Assembly: GCA_013824715.1 (NCBI GenBank)
Contig: PNOH01000025.1
Span: 1 to 64,000, forward strand
Direction: 5' to 3'
Source: Odoribacter sp.
GTDB lineage: Bacteria > Bacteroidota > Bacteroidia > Bacteroidales > Prolixibacteraceae
Length of the DNA: 64,000 nucleotides
Part shown: positions 49,451 through 55,878 of the stretch, in pieces
Layout of the letters: each line of letters opens with the position of its first letter
Position numbering within the stretch: position 1 is the first letter of the stretch
The notes under the pieces: generated by a model
The model's input: the letters and a program-made list of their open reading frames with translations, nothing else
What the model was told of the DNA's origin: nothing
Database searches by the model: none
Translations under genes and position numbers: made by a program

Positions 49451-50161
49451 TTATTTGTTGTTTTCTTCAATCCATCGTGCAACAGAATACTGAACAAACG
49501 ACAATTCCTCCTGTTCAGGCGAAAGATACACTTTATTGGTAAAAACCCGCCAAGCCGCTCTTGCCGTAGAGTTTTCGTTAGCCAAAATAACCGAGGAAGG
49601 ATTAGTAAAATTACCAGAGGCTTTAAAATTATCAATTCCGGATGGACTAAAGAAAAGATAGGCATCAAAAATTCCGTTTACGATTTTCTCAATGGGAGTA
49701 TTTTTATATACTTCAATCGCGGAATACTGCAAGGCTGTTGTCTCAAAAATTGAATTGATTTCGGTATATAGCTTATCGCCATGTAGGAATAAAACCGACT
49801 CGCCCTCATTTTGGAAAATAACCTTCCCGGCCAGTTCAACCGGCTTTGAAAATGATGATACAGAAACAGGTAAGTTAAGCTTGCTTAGAATTTCAGCCTG
49901 ATTCTCGGACCAGCAATAGATTCGGTCGGTTTGGGTAAAGCCAAGTTGTGCCCCGAAACGAACCAGCCAGTGCGCGGCATAGGCGCTCGTTACTACCCAT
50001 TGTTTGCTCTGTTTGGCTATTGTTCCGAAGAATGGAAGGTTGGGCTTTTTGTACCCGGTCCGCAAAAAAGGTTGCTCGATGTACTGAATTTGCTGCTTTT
50101 GCAGCCATTGCCTGGTTTTATGAGACAATTTTTCGCCGATAAAAAATACTGGAGTTTTCAT
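49451..50161 (-). CDS. hemD: Uroporphyrinogen-III synthase
   Basis: A 236-residue enzyme (EC 4.2.1.75) that closes hydroxymethylbilane with inversion of ring D. HemD sequences diverge widely; recognisable parts are QWVVTSAYAAHWLVRF (usual W-F-TS-A/S), GESVLFLHGDKLYTEI (equivalent of the LLRG segment), AIEVYKNTPIEK (VY-T motif) and DAYLFFSPSGIDNF (FTSPSAV). It lies 12 bases after cysI and supplies the precursor for the SUMT at the end of the operon. Confidence 0.85.
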   Translation of the reverse strand: MKTPVFFIGEKLSHKTRQWLQKQQIQYIEQPFLRTGYKKPNLPFFGTIAKQSKQWVVTSAYAAHWLVRFGAQLGFTQTDRIYCWSENQAEILSKLNLPVSVSSFSKPVELAGKVIFQNEGESVLFLHGDKLYTEINSIFETTALQYSAIEVYKNTPIEKIVNGIFDAYLFFSPSGIDNFKASGNFTNPSSVILANENSTARAAWRVFTNKVYLSPEQEELSFVQYSVARWIEENNK

Positions 50162-50173
50162 GATATTAATTTT

Positions 50174-51874
50174 TTAATGTTTGAAATCACTTCCTTTTAA
50201 TGTTTCTTTTACGTACTGCTTCCGGATAACGAAATCGCCAAACTTTTCGCCATCAATCCTATTCTGTGCGTAATCAGAAAGGATGGGTGATAATTCAGCC
50301 AGTATTTCCGCTTCAGTAAGCGTTTCTTTGTAGAGCGTATTGAGGCGGGTTCCGTTAAAGTTTCCGCCCAGGTAGAGGTTGTAATGGCCTTCTGATTTTC
50401 CAATGAAGCCGATTTCTGCCAGATACGGTCTTCCGCAACCATTGGGGCATCCGGTCATTCGAATCACAATTTCTTCCTTAAACAACTCATGCTGAACAAG
50501 AATCGTTTCAATTTTGGTGACCAGCGATGGCAGATACCTTTCAGCTTCGGCAAATGCCAATCCGCAGGTATTGAGCGCCACACAGGCAATTGAATTATGC
50601 CGGAGTCCTGAAAGTTCGCCGGGCACTACGCCATTCTTTTTCAGGATTGCGCTTACGTTTTTCTTCTCGTCAGCCGTCAAATTGGCAATGATAAGGTTCT
50701 GGTTTCCGGTCAGGATAAATTTCCCGTCAATAATATGGGCAATTTCACGAAGCGCTGATTTGAGGTTAAAATCGTCTTTATCAGCCACACGTCCACCTTC
50801 AATAAACAGTGTCAGGCTCCATTTCGAATCTGTGCCTTTCTTCCAACCCAGTCGGTCGCCATTGCGGGTAAAATTGAATGGCCTTGGCTCCTGAAGTTCA
50901 AAGCCGAGGTATTTGTGCAGTTCGTTTATAAACCAGTCAATGCCATGATCATCAATGGTATATTTCAGTCTTGATCGTTTGCGGTTCTGCCGGTTTCCGT
51001 TGTCGCGCTGAACCAGAACTACTTTTTCTGCCACATCAAGCGCCTGTCCGGGAGTGCAAAAGCCAATCACATCGGCCAGTCGCGGATAAGCTTCCGGCAT
51101 TCCAAAGGTTGAGCCCATTCCTCCGCCAACAGCAACATTATAACCCACAATCCTGTTATTTACCACGATAGCAATAAATCCCAAATCCTGCGAAAAAATA
51201 TCCGAGTCGTTATATGGCGGAATAGCTACCGTGATTTTGAATTTACGGGGAAGATAACGGTCACCGTAAATCGGTTCAACATCTTTCTTGCTGTCGGCTA
51301 TTAACTTTTGGTTGAGCCAGATTTCGTGGTAGGCAGTGGTTGATGGCAGCAAATGTTCGCTGATCCGGCGTGCCGTTTCGTAAACTTCGGCATGCAATTC
51401 CGACTCGGCTGGATTTGGATGGCACATCACATTTCGGTTCACATCGCCACAGGCAGCAATAGTATCCATTAATCCGGCATTGATTCCCTGAATGGTCTTT
51501 TTGAGGTCTTTTTTAATGACTCCATGTAGCTGAAAGGCCTGTCTGGTGGTCAGTTTCAGCGTATGGTTGGCATATTGCTCCGATAAATCGTCCATTTGCA
51601 ACCATTGTTTTGGAGTCACAACACCGCCGGGAATACGCACACGAATCAGAAAAGAATAAGCAGGTTCCAGTTTCTGTCGTTTGCGTTCTTTTTCCAGATC
51701 GCGGTCACTCTGCTGGTATATGCCATGAAATTTTGAAATTTGGGTATCAGCAAGAGCAATTGATCCGGTGATAGGATCAGCCAGACTTTCAACCAAAGTT
51801 CCACGCAAATAATTGCTGTCGTATTTTATTTTTTCTACTTCTGAAAGTAGTTTCCAGTTTATTGTATCGCTCAT
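50174..51874 (-). CDS. cysI: Assimilatory sulfite reductase hemoprotein (CysI-type)
   Basis: A 566-residue enzyme reducing sulfite to sulfide. The ATG at 51874 ([20 protein letters not shown]) is chosen; longer in-frame versions run into repeats. It has two ferredoxin-like halves ([20 protein letters not shown]) and the siroheme/4Fe-4S cysteines in two pairs: CVALNTC (about residue 430) and CPNGC (about 472, within [18 protein letters not shown]). [11 protein letters not shown] is also conserved. Electron supply should come from the flavoprotein fusion encoded just upstream. Tandem ATTCAAAATT-type repeats fill the 80-base gap before the start. Confidence 0.95.
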
Positions 51875-51955
51875 TTGAATGATGAATTTTGAATGATAAA
51901 TTTTGAATAATTCGATTTCCTTTTCTGAAAACTGAGACTGAACACTGTTCACTTT

Positions 51956-54064
51956 TTAGTACACATCTGTTTGAAACCGTTTCTCTTTTTTTAATGTTTT
52001 CAGGTATTCCAGCGCTCTTTCTTCGCTCATGCCGCCTTCATTCTCAAAAATCCGGAGCAAGGTTTTTTGCACATCGCGGGCCATTTGTTTCATGTCGCCG
52101 CACAGATAAATATTTGCCCCGTTGTCAAGCCATTCAAATATTTCCTTCTGATTTTCCAAAAGGCGGTGTTGCACATATACCTTTTCTTCCTGATCGCGCG
52201 AGAAAGCCACATCAATTTTTTCCAGGTAACCATCTTTCAGCAATTTCTGCCATTCAAGCTGGTATAAAAAGTCGGAATGAAAGCGACGTTCTCCAAAGAA
52301 AAGCCAGGTTTTACCTTTCTGGTTACTGGCTTCGCGGTGCTGTAAAAATGCACGGTACGGAGCTACACCGGTTCCTGCACCCACCAATATTACCGGGGTT
52401 TCTTCGTTTTCAGGAAGTTTAAATGCCGGGTTCTTTTCAATGAATACTGAAACCTGAGAGTCAATATCAATCCGGTCGGCCAGATAAGTGGAACAGGCGC
52501 CGGCACGTTCGCGCCCTTTATATGAATAGCGAACTGTTGCTACAGTAACATGCACTTCATTGCCAACAGCCGACTGGCTTGACGAAATGGAATATAACCG
52601 GGGCGGAAAACTTCTAAGAATGCAGGCAAAATCCTGTGCCATCAATTTGAATGGAAATTCTTCGAGCAAGTCGAGTACATCATGTCCGTATAAATATTTA
52701 TCCAGTTGCCCGTCATTTTTAATAATTTCCTGAAGCTTTTTATTTCCGGTTTTTTCCTGATATTTTTGAATCACCTCGCGGTTTAGTATGGTAATTTCCA
52801 GACAATCAGATAAGGCTTCCTTCAGTGAAATTTCTTCTTCTTTAAGTGTTACTGGTTCAGTTCCGTTAAAACCGGCTTGACTGATAATGTTTTCTACCAA
52901 AGAAGGAGGATTATTTGCCAGAATTCCTACCGAATCGCCCGGTTCGTAAGATATTCCTGATCCTTCGAGCGAAAGTTCTACGTGATAAACCTCCTTGTCC
53001 GAATCGCGTCCGGTAATTTTAACTTTGTCGAGGACCGTTGCTTTAAAGGGATTTTTTCTGGAATATGATTTGTTTGCTGAAGAATTGTTTGCCGAAGTTT
53101 TATTAATTACCGGCTCTGATTCGGTTTTTTCGGCAAAGATTTTTACAAAAGTATCAATCCAATTGTCGGCTTCTTCCTCGAAATCAACATCCAGCTTTAA
53201 TAATGGCAGAATTGGCTTTGCGCCCAGTTGGCTTAAAGCCTGTTCGATATCTATTCCTGTTTTGCAGAATAGTTTATAACTTTTATCTCCAAGGGCCAAT
53301 ACCGAGTAGTTCAGGTCGGGCAGTTGCGGGGCGCGTTTTCCGGTTATAAAATGATGAAAGTCTTCGGCCATTGCCGGGGGTTCTCCTTCGCCGTGAGTAC
53401 TTACGATGAAAACCAGGTTGGATTCAGAAGACAGTTGCCTGGTTTTATAATCGTCCAAAGCAACCGACTGTACTTCAACTCCACGGCTGGCAAGCTTTTC
53501 AGCCAATTTTCCCGCAATTGTTTTACTTCGTCCGGTATGGGTTCCGTACAGAATTTTTAGCTGTTTGCTGTTTTTAGCCTGAATGGGCGTACTTGCAGGC
53601 TGACTGTTTCCGGATGATACAAGTAATTCTAAGTATTCCTGAATCTGATTCCGAATATGGATTGATTCATTTACATTTTCGGCATTTGAACTTACAGCCA
53701 CAGAAATGTTCCCATCCTGATAAATGGCTGGTGAAACAAACTGGCAAAGAGCCGGATTGTCATGAATATTGACCAACACTCCGGCCTCTTTCCCATCGTG
53801 TGCAATTTGCCTGTCGAGTTCTTCATTATTGGTACACGAATAAAGCATCAGGTAATTTTGCAGATCGGATTTTTCGTACTTCTTCTGAAAACAAGCTACA
53901 CCGGAGGCATGGACTTCATCAATGATATTTTCGGCTACCACATTGATTTGGGCGCCAAACCGTTGCAAAATCCTGATTTTCTTCAGAGCGCTTTGCCCGC
54001 CGCCGATCACCAGAATTTTCCGGTCCGAAATATCAATGGATATGGGTAAAAAGATTCTTGACAT
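51956..54064 (-). CDS. cysJ: Fusion of precorrin-2 dehydrogenase/ferrochelatase with sulfite reductase flavoprotein (CysJ)
   Basis: A 702-residue two-part protein. Residues 1-150 match the siroheme-synthase N-terminal module (CysG-N/Met8): KILVIGGGQSALKKIRILQR (NAD site), VLVNIHDNPALCQFVSPAIY with the catalytic Asp retained, and ISVAVSSNAENVNESI. Residues 167-310 are a flavodoxin domain (KILYGTHTGRSKTIAGKLAE, FIVSTHGEGEPP, ALGDKSYKLFC). Residues 340-702 are the CysJ-type FAD (PPRLYSISSS, GACSTYLAD) and NADPH (VILVGAGTGVAPYRAFLQHR, YLCGDMKQMARDV) modules. CysJ passes NADPH electrons to CysI; the extra module makes sirohydrochlorin and siroheme, the CysI cofactor. The frame is continuous, with no sign of a frameshift joining two genes. 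Confidence 0.92.
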   Translation of the reverse strand: MSRIFLPISIDISDRKILVIGGGQSALKKIRILQRFGAQINVVAENIIDEVHASGVACFQKKYEKSDLQNYLMLYSCTNNEELDRQIAHDGKEAGVLVNIHDNPALCQFVSPAIYQDGNISVAVSSNAENVNESIHIRNQIQEYLELLVSSGNSQPASTPIQAKNSKQLKILYGTHTGRSKTIAGKLAEKLASRGVEVQSVALDDYKTRQLSSESNLVFIVSTHGEGEPPAMAEDFHHFITGKRAPQLPDLNYSVLALGDKSYKLFCKTGIDIEQALSQLGAKPILPLLKLDVDFEEEADNWIDTFVKIFAEKTESEPVINKTSANNSSANKSYSRKNPFKATVLDKVKITGRDSDKEVYHVELSLEGSGISYEPGDSVGILANNPPSLVENIISQAGFNGTEPVTLKEEEISLKEALSDCLEITILNREVIQKYQEKTGNKKLQEIIKNDGQLDKYLYGHDVLDLLEEFPFKLMAQDFACILRSFPPRLYSISSSQSAVGNEVHVTVATVRYSYKGRERAGACSTYLADRIDIDSQVSVFIEKNPAFKLPENEETPVILVGAGTGVAPYRAFLQHREASNQKGKTWLFFGERRFHSDFLYQLEWQKLLKDGYLEKIDVAFSRDQEEKVYVQHRLLENQKEIFEWLDNGANIYLCGDMKQMARDVQKTLLRIFENEGGMSEERALEYLKTLKKEKRFQTDVY

Positions 54065-54076
54065 GCTGTCTGGATT

Positions 54077-54307
54077 TTAAATTTGATAATCGGTTCCATT
54101 ACTTTTTATTCGTCCGAAATTGATTCGGTTCCAGGTTCTTTCGTGCAAAAAATATAGTCCCATTTTGGTAAAAACTTCTACTCCCCCAATCGCTATGGCC
54201 ATATCAAGTTTGCCAGTTATTATCAAAGAGATTACAATAGTATCAAGTGTTCCGATGGTTCGCCATGAAACCGACTTCACAATGCTTCGGTATGATTTCT
54301 CACTCAT
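54077..54307 (-). CDS. DUF2061 small membrane protein
   Basis: A 76-residue inner-membrane protein of the DUF2061 family (PF09834). It has KSVSWRTIGTLDTIVISLII with the family's Ser-Trp-Arg and T-x-D signature, a second membrane segment (MAIAIGGVEVFTKMGLYFLH) and the terminal ERTWNRI motif (usually ERxW). The ATG at 54307 is preferred over an upstream TTG. Family members are often found beside sulfate-assimilation genes, and here it is first in the sulfite-reductase operon, directly after a leader terminator. Function unknown; a role in sulfite or sulfide handling is conjecture. Confidence 0.88.
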   Translation of the reverse strand: MSEKSYRSIVKSVSWRTIGTLDTIVISLIITGKLDMAIAIGGVEVFTKMGLYFLHERTWNRINFGRIKSNGTDYQI

Positions 54308-54326: not shown

Positions 54327-54360
54327 AAAAAAAAAGCCCCTCTGGATTCCAGAAGGGCTT
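54327..54360 (-). terminator. Attenuator terminator ahead of the sulfite-reductase operon
   Basis: Read on the minus strand, AAGCCCTTCTGG pairs with CCAGAGGGGCTT around AAT (one internal mismatch) and nine T follow. It lies 25 bases after the leader-peptide stop and 20 bases before the first structural ATG, with no gene ending at it. Confidence 0.85.
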
Positions 54361-54374
54361 AAATATATCTTGGC

Positions 54375-54415
54375 AATAGTTCGCCTATATCCTGTCAACC
54401 TCCTGAATAACTATT
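54375..54415 (-). promoter_or_regulatory. Leader hairpin overlapping the end of the leader ORF
   Basis: On the minus strand AATAGTT (54415-54409) can pair with AACTATT (54381-54375), enclosing the leader stop codon. It could be an alternative structure to, or a staging hairpin for, the terminator; folding is needed to decide. Confidence 0.4.
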
Positions 54416-54468
54416 ATACAACACATACACATGCCCATTGAAGCGCACATGTTGCTGGTCATATTCAT
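54385..54468 (-). CDS. Cys/Met-rich leader peptide
   Basis: A 27-codon ORF from ATG 54468 to TAG 54385. The first 17 residues are MNMTSNMCASMGMCMCC: six Met and four Cys out of 17, two rare residues in normal proteins. It lies 70 bases downstream of a TATATTTG promoter element and just upstream of a terminator hairpin that precedes the sulfite-reductase operon. This is the layout of a leader peptide whose translation speed reports charged tRNA-Cys and tRNA-Met. Cys-rich leader peptides upstream of sulfur genes are known in actinobacteria; I know of no Bacteroidota example. Translation is inferred, not shown. Confidence 0.7.
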   Translation of the reverse strand: MNMTSNMCASMGMCMCCIIVIQEVDRI

Positions 54469-54536
54469 TTTTGCTATTTCAGGAGAAAATTTGTTCATCG
54501 GTAAAAGACTTAATGATCTGCAATTATTCAATGCTG

Positions 54537-54544
54537 CAAATATA
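54537..54544 (-). promoter_or_regulatory. -7 element TATATTTG for the sulfite-reductase operon
   Basis: TATATTTG on the minus strand fits TAnnTTTG exactly. Transcription would begin near 54530, about 60 bases before the leader ATG. A clear -33 TTG is not seen at the right distance. Confidence 0.5.
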
Positions 54545-54619: not shown

Positions 54620-54627
54620 TATATTTG
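54620..54627 (+). promoter_or_regulatory. -7 element TATATTTG for the ATP-grasp gene
   Basis: TATATTTG 21 bases before the ATG at 54649, facing away from the sulfite-reductase promoter, so the two transcripts diverge from a 76-base region. Confidence 0.45.
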
Positions 54628-54648
54628 CCTTTTGATTTTAGCCATTTT

Positions 54649-55878
54649 ATGTCAAAAACGAAAGTTTTCTATTTCAATCCTACCTGCGAACTGGCTGTTG
54701 CCAACGGGTCGTTCAGCTACATGCCGCCACTCCTGCTTCAGGAAATGGAACGCGATTTAGCACTGCTTCCATTTGTTTTTGCCTCAGAAAACGATTTTAT
54801 CATTTCGGCAAATCCTCCTTCGGCTGAATATATTCAACAACTTAAAGAATGGGGATTTGAAGTTCCCGGGTTTTGCAGTTTATCCGAACTTGAAGCAATG
54901 CCAGCCGGTTCGTATGATGTCATCTTCCCCTGGGGCTGGAGCCCGGCGGCACATTTTAAATTGAAGAACCTCAAAGAAAAGTGTTCAGGAGAATTTAAGA
55001 CAAATCCTGTTTACAATTGGCATGAAGGGCATCAATCACTTTTCGAACGATCAACTTCTCTAAATTTCCTGACCGGTATCCTGAATAATAATCCGCAAAC
55101 CTGGCTTATCAGCAAATCAATGACCGGCGTAAAGGTGACTAACCTGACAGAAATTGAATCAATGCTCAATAAAAATCCGGCATTGGTCTTAAAAGCGCCA
55201 ATGAGTTCTTCTGGGCGGGGAATCCAGATCATCCGAAGAAAAATTCTGAATAATTCAAACAAAGAATGGATTTCAGGAGTATTAAAACAGCAAAACTACC
55301 TGATTGCCGAACCATTTCTTGAAAAACTGGCTGATCTGTCTTTTCAGTTTCAAATAAATGATGGTTCAGAGATTGAATATTTGGGTTATTCTTTCTTCGA
55401 AACCAATTCAAATGGCCAGTATAAAGGGTCGTTTATCCACGCCGGACTGATGGATGTTTTTCCAGGTGAAAACGCAGATGAAATAGGCAACATGATTGGT
55501 ACAACAGCAAAAGTAATCGGTGAGGCATTAAAAATTTCGGTTTATTTACGCTGGCATCGTGGATTTTTAGGCGTTGATGCTATGTTTTTCAGGAATGAAA
55601 AACAGTTGATGATGCAACCTTGTATTGAGATCAATTGCAGGATGAATATGGGAATACTAACTCTATTTTTGGAAAGTAAAATTCAGAAGGAAGCAAAAGG
55701 CAAATTTGAACTTTATTACGGAGCGCCGGGTGAATTTGAGATTTTTGCCGGAAAGGAAACACTACTTAATCCGCCTGTAATAAAGGACGGAAAAATAAGT
55801 TCAGGTTTTTTCCCATTGGTTGAACCCGGGCACCAGAAAAAATTTGGCGCTTATTTTTCGATAGGCGGCACCAGATAG
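54649..55878 (+). CDS. ATP-grasp-like protein of unknown function
   Basis: A 409-residue cytoplasmic protein. The ATG at 54649 begins MSKTKVFYFNPTCELAVANG, a start seen in a conserved Bacteroidota family I cannot name. The middle and C-terminal parts have ATP-grasp features: PALVLKAPMSSSGRGIQII (Lys and glycine-rich nucleotide loop, about residue 185), LIAEPFLEKLADLSFQF, then GFLGVDAMFF and QPCIEINCRMNMG (the E-x-N metal site). It would join a carboxylate to an amine or thiol using ATP. It is divergent from the sulfite-reductase operon and its 3' end overlaps the convergent response-regulator gene by 28 bases. Confidence 0.65.
   Translation: MSKTKVFYFNPTCELAVANGSFSYMPPLLLQEMERDLALLPFVFASENDFIISANPPSAEYIQQLKEWGFEVPGFCSLSELEAMPAGSYDVIFPWGWSPAAHFKLKNLKEKCSGEFKTNPVYNWHEGHQSLFERSTSLNFLTGILNNNPQTWLISKSMTGVKVTNLTEIESMLNKNPALVLKAPMSSSGRGIQIIRRKILNNSNKEWISGVLKQQNYLIAEPFLEKLADLSFQFQINDGSEIEYLGYSFFETNSNGQYKGSFIHAGLMDVFPGENADEIGNMIGTTAKVIGEALKISVYLRWHRGFLGVDAMFFRNEKQLMMQPCIEINCRMNMGILTLFLESKIQKEAKGKFELYYGAPGEFEIFAGKETLLNPPVIKDGKISSGFFPLVEPGHQKKFGAYFSIGGTR

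Follow-up and report, generated by a model that had tools for sequence, protein, structure and literature searches.

A candidate leader-peptide attenuator with Cys and Met codons ahead of a sulfite reductase operon in Bacteroidota

The cysJ operon and its leader region

The window, that is, the whole stretch of 64,000 nucleotides analysed here, carries on its minus strand an operon in the order DUF2061-cysJ-sulfite reductase-hemD. The first structural gene (54077..54307) matches Pfam PF09834 (DUF2061, E 1.1e-21). It is followed by a cysJ-type flavoprotein gene (51956..54064; Flavodoxin_1, FAD_binding_1, NAD_binding_1 and NAD_binding_7), whose product has an N-terminal NAD-binding domain as in siroheme synthases, and by genes for a sulfite reductase hemoprotein (50174..51952; NIR_SIR, NIR_SIR_ferr) and a HemD-like uroporphyrinogen-III synthase (49451..50161; HEM4). 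A preliminary description of this DNA had placed a 12-bp terminator with nine T before the first gene, and both are there: a stem of 12 pairs with a 3-nt loop occupies positions 54360-54334 of the minus strand and runs into nine T (54327..54335, minus strand), two of which lie inside the stem, and the T run ends 19 nt 5′ of the DUF2061 ATG (54307). Within 1.3 kb upstream no minus-strand ORF of at least 60 aa was found, besides small ORFs inside the divergent ORF 54625-55878. Thus, the terminator can act only on the operon's own transcript. The divergent plus-strand ORF (~416 aa) has no Pfam match at E ≤ 0.01.

The promoter element TATATTTG named in the same description is present at 54544-54537 of the minus strand, 5′ of the leader ORF. 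It has the form TAnnTTTG, which we take to be the consensus of the Bacteroidota-type –7 promoter element. Among the 54 family leaders introduced below, TAnnTTTG lies within 90 nt 5′ of the leader ATG at 48 loci; the reverse strand of these stretches has it at 3. At 39 of the 54 loci the –33 region contains a TTG, which the window itself lacks.

The leader ORF comprises 37 codons (MNKFSPEIAKMNMTSNMCASMGMCMCCIIVIQEVDRI, 54385..54498, minus strand). It had been described as a 27-codon ORF starting at the inner ATG at 54468 (MNMTSNMCASMGMCMCC...). That frame exists, and 10 of its first 17 residues are Met or Cys, but in relatives an ATG is conserved some ten codons nearer the 5′ end (MKQYSSEIAKMN..., MNKFSSEIAKMN...); the in-frame ATG at 54498, ten codons 5′ of the inner one, agrees with the start in these relatives, and the 27-codon start was rejected. 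Eleven of the 37 residues are Met or Cys, the background in the 33 long ORFs of the window being 3.1% (binomial P = 9e-9 for at least 11 of 37, a single-test value that does not include search multiplicity). The putative sensor codons, MCASMGMCMCC, lie inside the ORF at 54418..54450 (minus strand), and the final six core codons of the 54 family leaders are mainly ATG, TGT or TGC. The third base varies within leader Cys codons and is biased to TGT: 69 leaders contain 238 TGT and 43 TGC, the long ORFs of the window 51 and 48. When all 715 ATG-start ORFs of 10–70 aa in the window were scanned, nine had at least four Met/Cys per eight residues, and the sole one of these with a terminator after it was the cysJ leader.

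The leader region is predicted to fold more stably than 200 out of 200 shuffled versions (z = –3.8). At gathering level Rfam matched nothing on the leader, its only match in the window being a cobalamin riboswitch elsewhere (RF00174, 19489-19692, minus strand, 86.1 bits); the family locus L002 gave no match up to E 0.5. NCBIfam holds no family at E ≤ 1 for the four leaders queried. The inverted repeat reported over the stop codon of the leader is present, but it is weak, the centroid fold keeping only an inner 5-bp stem, and in 20 sequences compared by eye it does not persist beyond the genus. As an antiterminator it was rejected for this weakness; the proposed pairing partner is a segment beside the Cys run, segment B below.

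Conservation and pairing of the leader across the family

We searched 140 genomes of the family for DUF2061. DUF2061-like matches were obtained in 68 genomes, 79 matches in total, of which 70 were fetched (L002-L071) and nine weaker ones left out; L001 denotes the window's second copy. A CysJ-like match was found in 65 of the 70 fetched loci, and the five without it (L065, L067-L070) were set aside. A Met/Cys leader with a terminator lies directly upstream of DUF2061 in 54 of the 65 CysJ-linked loci, at a threshold of four out of six core residues that admits L006-L008, which miss a stricter one; the terminator hairpin was found for all 54 leaders. At the other 11 loci, 10 of them inspected, the end of another gene (HemA-, CysN- or TusA-like, by eye) lies close 5′ of DUF2061. 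Taking up to 10 kb more sequence revealed a leader with terminator farther upstream, ahead of the gene run, in 8 of these 11; the intervening genes are co-directional in six of the eight loci (six were checked). Pfam identifies HemA between leader and DUF2061 in L175 and, in L179, a run of OsmC, ThiS, a Cys/Met PLP enzyme, ThiF, DsrE, TusA, JAB and a sulfite reductase with a TusA domain. The remaining three comprise two loci whose contigs end 2–4 kb upstream and L071/L185, with no leader in 10 kb. The operon thus seems to keep the leader at its 5′ end, whichever gene comes first, and the expectation that Met/Cys codons would persist before DUF2061-cysJI operons while the surrounding DNA drifts was borne out in both the direct and the distant arrangement. 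Leader length varies from 26 to 39 codons in the family and the flanks are variable, the distance between the codon run and segment B being kept.

A pattern of core codons, B and C was also scanned over 84,980 named species. It returned 22 loci, 14 in Prolixibacteraceae-type genera and 8 in Balneolaceae (counting Rhodohalobacter), a tally that cannot show how far the device spreads since the pattern was built from known cases. The 14 loci belong to Draconibacterium, Mangrovibacterium, Mariniphaga, Sunxiuqinia, Maribellus, Tangfeifania and Thermophagus, presumably all Prolixibacteraceae and relatives; judged by sequence, the reading frame after the leader is DUF2061 in 10, a CysG/CysJ-like N-terminus in 3 and HemA-like in 1.

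Four segments of the leader transcript, all on the minus strand, can be arranged in alternative hairpins. Segment A (UUCUCCUGAAA, 54477..54487) is able to pair with B and does so in the MFE fold; B (AUUCAGGAGGU, 54398..54408), the putative antiterminator strand, starts 9 nt past the last Cys codon; C (54349..54360), the 5′ arm of the terminator, can pair with B or with D (54334..54345), its 3′ arm. A resembles C, and B resembles D. In the window the calculated pairing energies are –13.1 kcal/mol for A:B, –12.4 for B:C and –19.9 for C:D.

Of the 54 family loci, 51 yielded the B motif, and in all 51 it stands in the frame of the leader ORF; these loci are related, so that independent events are fewer than 51. 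The distance of the motif from the last core codon is 9, 12, 15 or 18 nt. In all 69 leaders, family and other taken together, the last core codon is followed by B at a distance of 0–15 nt, as against 40% of the best complements in shuffled regions. Against dinucleotide shuffles, 40 of the 54 family leaders score P ≤ 0.05 for B:C pairing, as do 13 of the 15 that belong to other operons (described below; these 15 include near-identical copies); the remaining 14 and 2 have values above 0.05. A:B is uneven, the corresponding numbers being 32 of 54 and 2 of 15.

Covariation was counted over 53 aligned family loci (L060 left out) against 1000 permutations that swapped whole C blocks; permutations and shuffles alike ignore phylogeny. 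Position –1 of B forms a standard pair with its C partner in 51 of 53 loci (permuted mean 29.3, maximum 39) and position 6 in 50 of 53 (mean 42.0, maximum 48). The total for the helix is 525 standard pairs in 636 cells versus a permuted mean of 488 and a maximum of 508. Position –3 gives a weak signal (29 of 53; mean 23.8, maximum 32), positions 7 and 8 pair in 6 and 24 of 53, the same as permuted, and most remaining pairs of the helix hardly vary, hence they carry little covariation information. When B and C were exchanged among eight leader classes, the matched B:C was the best of its row in six, the exceptions being L077 and L090. By these alignments the predicted antiterminator pairing B:C, exclusive with the terminator, covaries; the mutually exclusive hairpins that the preliminary description had proposed to look for are present as B:C and C:D, with A:B good in the window and uneven among the other leaders.

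Leaders before other sulfur operons

Similar leaders, the majority of them with stems of unrelated sequence, precede other genes of sulfur metabolism. A second one (L190), MNQSLSNSTMCMCSCMLFQHVEGGVMLC, is present in the genome of the window; it has a terminator of its own and is followed by OsmC and a MetY-type (PF01053) gene. Its B (AUGUGGAGGGUG) and C (CCCUUCACA) are unlike those of the cysJ leader and pair at –16.6. In two relatives, L179 and L184, a leader similar to this second one stands before the sulfur-transfer operon listed above (by Pfam in L179, by eye in L184). Elsewhere (L077/L124) two leaders stand in tandem, MKIQNNNMMMCMCCSENEGLYATC and directly 3′ of it MNTITNMSIILLTSTACMMMMCCMQNFARGRLLYCL; both have a terminator, and PAPS reductase and a CysD-like gene follow. 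Ahead of cysC-cysD-cysN, where Pfam identifies the APS kinase in L203 and the remaining genes were named by eye, are MKTNNFYKGMSKNRAMMFCIMCCI and MKSRTLRQSVIYSICCMMCCN; MNFLNYIYKPFANMPMCMCCMCCMCTAEGRGCNFVT and relatives lie before rhodanese (Pfam for L106). The scan demanded five consecutive T, which kept L106 and L108 out of the element table; both show the hairpin.

In MLKSDRHNRISLCMMCMCCCT and its relatives the terminator is followed by a SAM-I riboswitch; next comes a gene for a CoA-binding protein in L113 and, by eye, for a MetY-type enzyme in L116. The order in L098 is MKLTNQYIAREMMCMCCYMRTLH, terminator, SAM-I riboswitch and a PF01053 enzyme, with a weaker B:C pairing. The riboswitch comes straight after the leader in seven of the eight Balneolaceae loci, the eighth being cut at the end of its stretch. 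RF00162 matches lie directly 3′ of leader and terminator in L090, L098, L113 and L116 and, among the named species, in L155, L160, L163 and L167-L170; by eye the same arrangement is seen in L099-L101, L105, L114, L115 and L117. With leader and SAM-I arranged in series, MetY-type operons would have two sulfur sensors of different kinds. SAM-I (RF00162), which is thus found before MetY-type operons too and directly after the leader in Balneolaceae, L090 and L098, is an element separate from the cysJ leader and has no match in the window. In L121 the order is reversed: a SAM-I riboswitch (418-530), a leader ending in CMCMCCCCC at its stop codon and a MetY-like gene (by eye), with no terminator seen.

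The frequency of the device was followed by several scans of the class. A 15-base pattern for MCMCC gave 48 sites in 45 of 395 genomes versus 9 sites for the reversed control; by our own reading of all 48, 17 are a leader with terminator before sulfur genes, and the remaining sites are internal to ordinary genes, in a different frame or ahead of genes of other kinds. A leader-peptide profile had matches in 28 of 395 genomes at E ≤ 1. Among 29 further profile-matched loci examined by eye, only L124 (the same site as L077) has a Met/Cys ORF with terminator; with nearly all of these loci lacking a leader, one peptide profile does not travel. In 29 newly fetched PAPS_reduct loci (best-scoring, 119 class genomes) a Met/Cys or Cys leader was found in 5, two of these with a terminator. 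The 30 best-scoring PF01053 loci of the class yielded no leader, and neither did the window genome's own PAPS_reduct genes in the stretches fetched. The nine PF01053 loci of that genome contain L190 and a weaker small ORF, MCSMCLCGSKI (L193), which we take for chance. The leader device is, on these scans, recurrent and not universal. Different stems combined with the same geometry are the strongest argument that selection may act on codons and spacing and not on a particular RNA sequence.

Some MCMCC frames have other neighbours. A conserved ORF ending in YMCMCC-stop was seen in L076, L078 and L079, in frame without an ATG before MCMCC, a TTG start being possible; it is followed by TonB-receptor-like genes in L076 and L078 (by eye) and by a hexapeptide transferase and then a PALP gene in L079. 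In L083 and L084 an ORF ending in RMCMCC-stop lies ahead of TonB-receptor-like genes (by eye).

Proposed mechanism, alternatives and related systems

In the trp, his, leu and ilv attenuators of Proteobacteria, codons for the end product are abundant in the leader ORF, the pairings exclude one another and a terminator precedes the first gene; the antiterminator strand lies at the front edge of the stalled ribosome. The cysJ leader is like them in its end-product codons, predicted exclusive pairings, terminator and the predicted position of B at the front edge of a stalled ribosome; it is unlike them in combining Cys and Met codons, in its Bacteroidota-type promoter element and in serving sulfur operons. 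Given its parts, their conservation, the B/C covariation, the frame and the spacing, we consider it very likely that the cysJ-operon leader is a trp-type transcription attenuator in which the translating ribosome gauges how much charged Cys- and Met-tRNA is available. The reading of the region as a sulfur amino acid attenuator, put forward in the preliminary description, is supported in silico (54/65 and 8/11 loci conserved, B:C covarying), with its start codon and its antiterminator partner corrected.

We infer translation, stalling, termination and a response to sulfur supply as follows. From a start near 54530, RNA polymerase would transcribe first A and the Met/Cys codons, then B, C and finally D. 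With Cys and Met plentiful, the ribosome would reach the stop codon and cover B, C:D would form and transcription would end before DUF2061. With Cys- or Met-tRNA scarce, it would stall in the MCMCC run, with A under or behind it and B just ahead of its front edge; B would pair with C as C emerges, D would be left partnerless and the operon would be transcribed. If the leader were not translated, A:B could form, leaving C:D free to terminate.

The spacing fits this scheme, in that a stalled ribosome would free B and one at the stop codon would cover it (footprint size assumed). When folding was calculated ahead of a stalled ribosome, its front edge assumed to lie ~9 nt past the stalled codon, P(B:C) in the RNA that precedes D was predicted to exceed 0.5 for 53 of the 54 family leaders and for 9 of the other 15; once the ribosome has reached the stop codon, P(C:D) > 0.5 is predicted in 54 of 54 and 15 of 15. 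For the full-length RNA at equilibrium, however, C:D beats B:C even with a stalled ribosome (median 0.95 in the family). B:C must therefore form first and persist, that is, the switch must be kinetic. The trp attenuation switch is kinetic as well. This calculated equilibrium advantage of C:D is the main weakness of the in silico case.

An RNA element, either a riboswitch or a protein-binding site, would fit the strong fold of the leader region and the preference for TGT among Cys codons (238 vs 43), which makes the core DNA fairly uniform. We nevertheless regard an RNA element with an incidental ORF as very unlikely: Rfam searches of the leader came up empty (gathering threshold for the window, up to E 0.5 for L002), the frame of B is kept in 51 of 51 loci, and the leaders of other operons have the same codons and spacing with different stem sequences. 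Slightly less probable still, in our estimate, is that the Met/Cys-rich nascent peptide itself is the sensor, stalling the ribosome in response to Cu(I), another soft metal or sulfide/redox state. Cys-containing uORFs before copper genes of other phyla have been proposed as nascent-peptide sensors of this type, MCMCC would be a plausible soft-metal ligand, and MCMCC-stop ORFs also occur before TonB-receptor-like genes in some genomes (by eye); against this, the leader and terminator cases inspected stand ahead of genes of sulfur metabolism (sulfite reductase, PAPS reductase, APS kinase, MetY-type enzyme, rhodanese), and leader length (26–39 codons in the family) and flanks vary while the distance between B and the codon run is kept. 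A fixed, unregulated terminator behind a chance ORF is scarcely credible for a leader conserved in 54/65 and 8/11 loci and the only case of its kind among the 715 small ORFs of the window.

The attenuator reading can be extended to the phylum with less confidence. It is fairly probable that Bacteroidota, including Balneolaceae, recurrently use dual Cys/Met leader-peptide attenuators as sulfur-amino-acid control, several of which have stems unrelated to one another and so may have had more than one origin; that in Balneolaceae they act in series with SAM-I, so that expression of these MetY operons would depend on poorly charged Cys/Met-tRNA together with low SAM; and that one genome of another family has two leaders in tandem before cysH-cysD. 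If so, a large phylum would have its own sulfur-amino-acid attenuation system where the searched literature describes none, which would explain the control of assimilatory sulfide production in Bacteroidota and provide a natural series circuit of leader peptide and SAM riboswitch. Predictions would follow for many genomes at once, and missed small ORFs could be annotated.

The mechanism class is known; the family and phylum context is new as far as searched. In the literature covered, which takes in few subscription journals, we found no report of a Cys/Met leader in Bacteroidota, in agreement with the earlier statement that no such element was known to have been described there. Within the phylum, the Flavobacterium psychrophilum transcriptome gave clues of leader-peptide attenuation before amino-acid operons (PMC9723704), and a B. 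thetaiotaomicron map mentions leader-like sORFs (PMC7366714). These cases share phylum and proposed mechanism class with the cysJ leader; unlike it, the accounts, as far as covered here, name no Cys/Met leader or sulfur operon.

More distant counterparts are the uORFC-8-2 motif and the actinobacterial Cys leaders. The former, 5′ of cysS in Rhodobacterales, is a short ORF with two tandem Cys codons and a 3′ U run consistent with a terminator (PMC8632094). A short ORF with Cys codons and a 3′ U run is found in the cysJ leader too; unlike it, uORFC-8-2 has two tandem Cys codons, a cysteinyl-tRNA synthetase gene and an alphaproteobacterial host. Leader ORFs with runs of Cys codons precede mycobacterial and P. 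acnes cys operons and B. longum cbs; the run lies near the stop codon, and Mycobacterium is described without a conserved terminator hairpin (PMC1262725). The cysJ leader likewise has a Cys-codon run in an ORF before cys genes; unlike in the mycobacterial poly-Cys class, ten codons separate its run from the stop, and a terminator is present. Three other loci of our set (L201, L202 and L209) carry poly-Cys leaders (e.g. MNQITHRHSSIAPNGLMCCCCCCC) that end at the stop codon without a terminator, ~100 nt (L201) and 90 nt (L209) before a PAPS_reduct gene; they look closer to the mycobacterial class.
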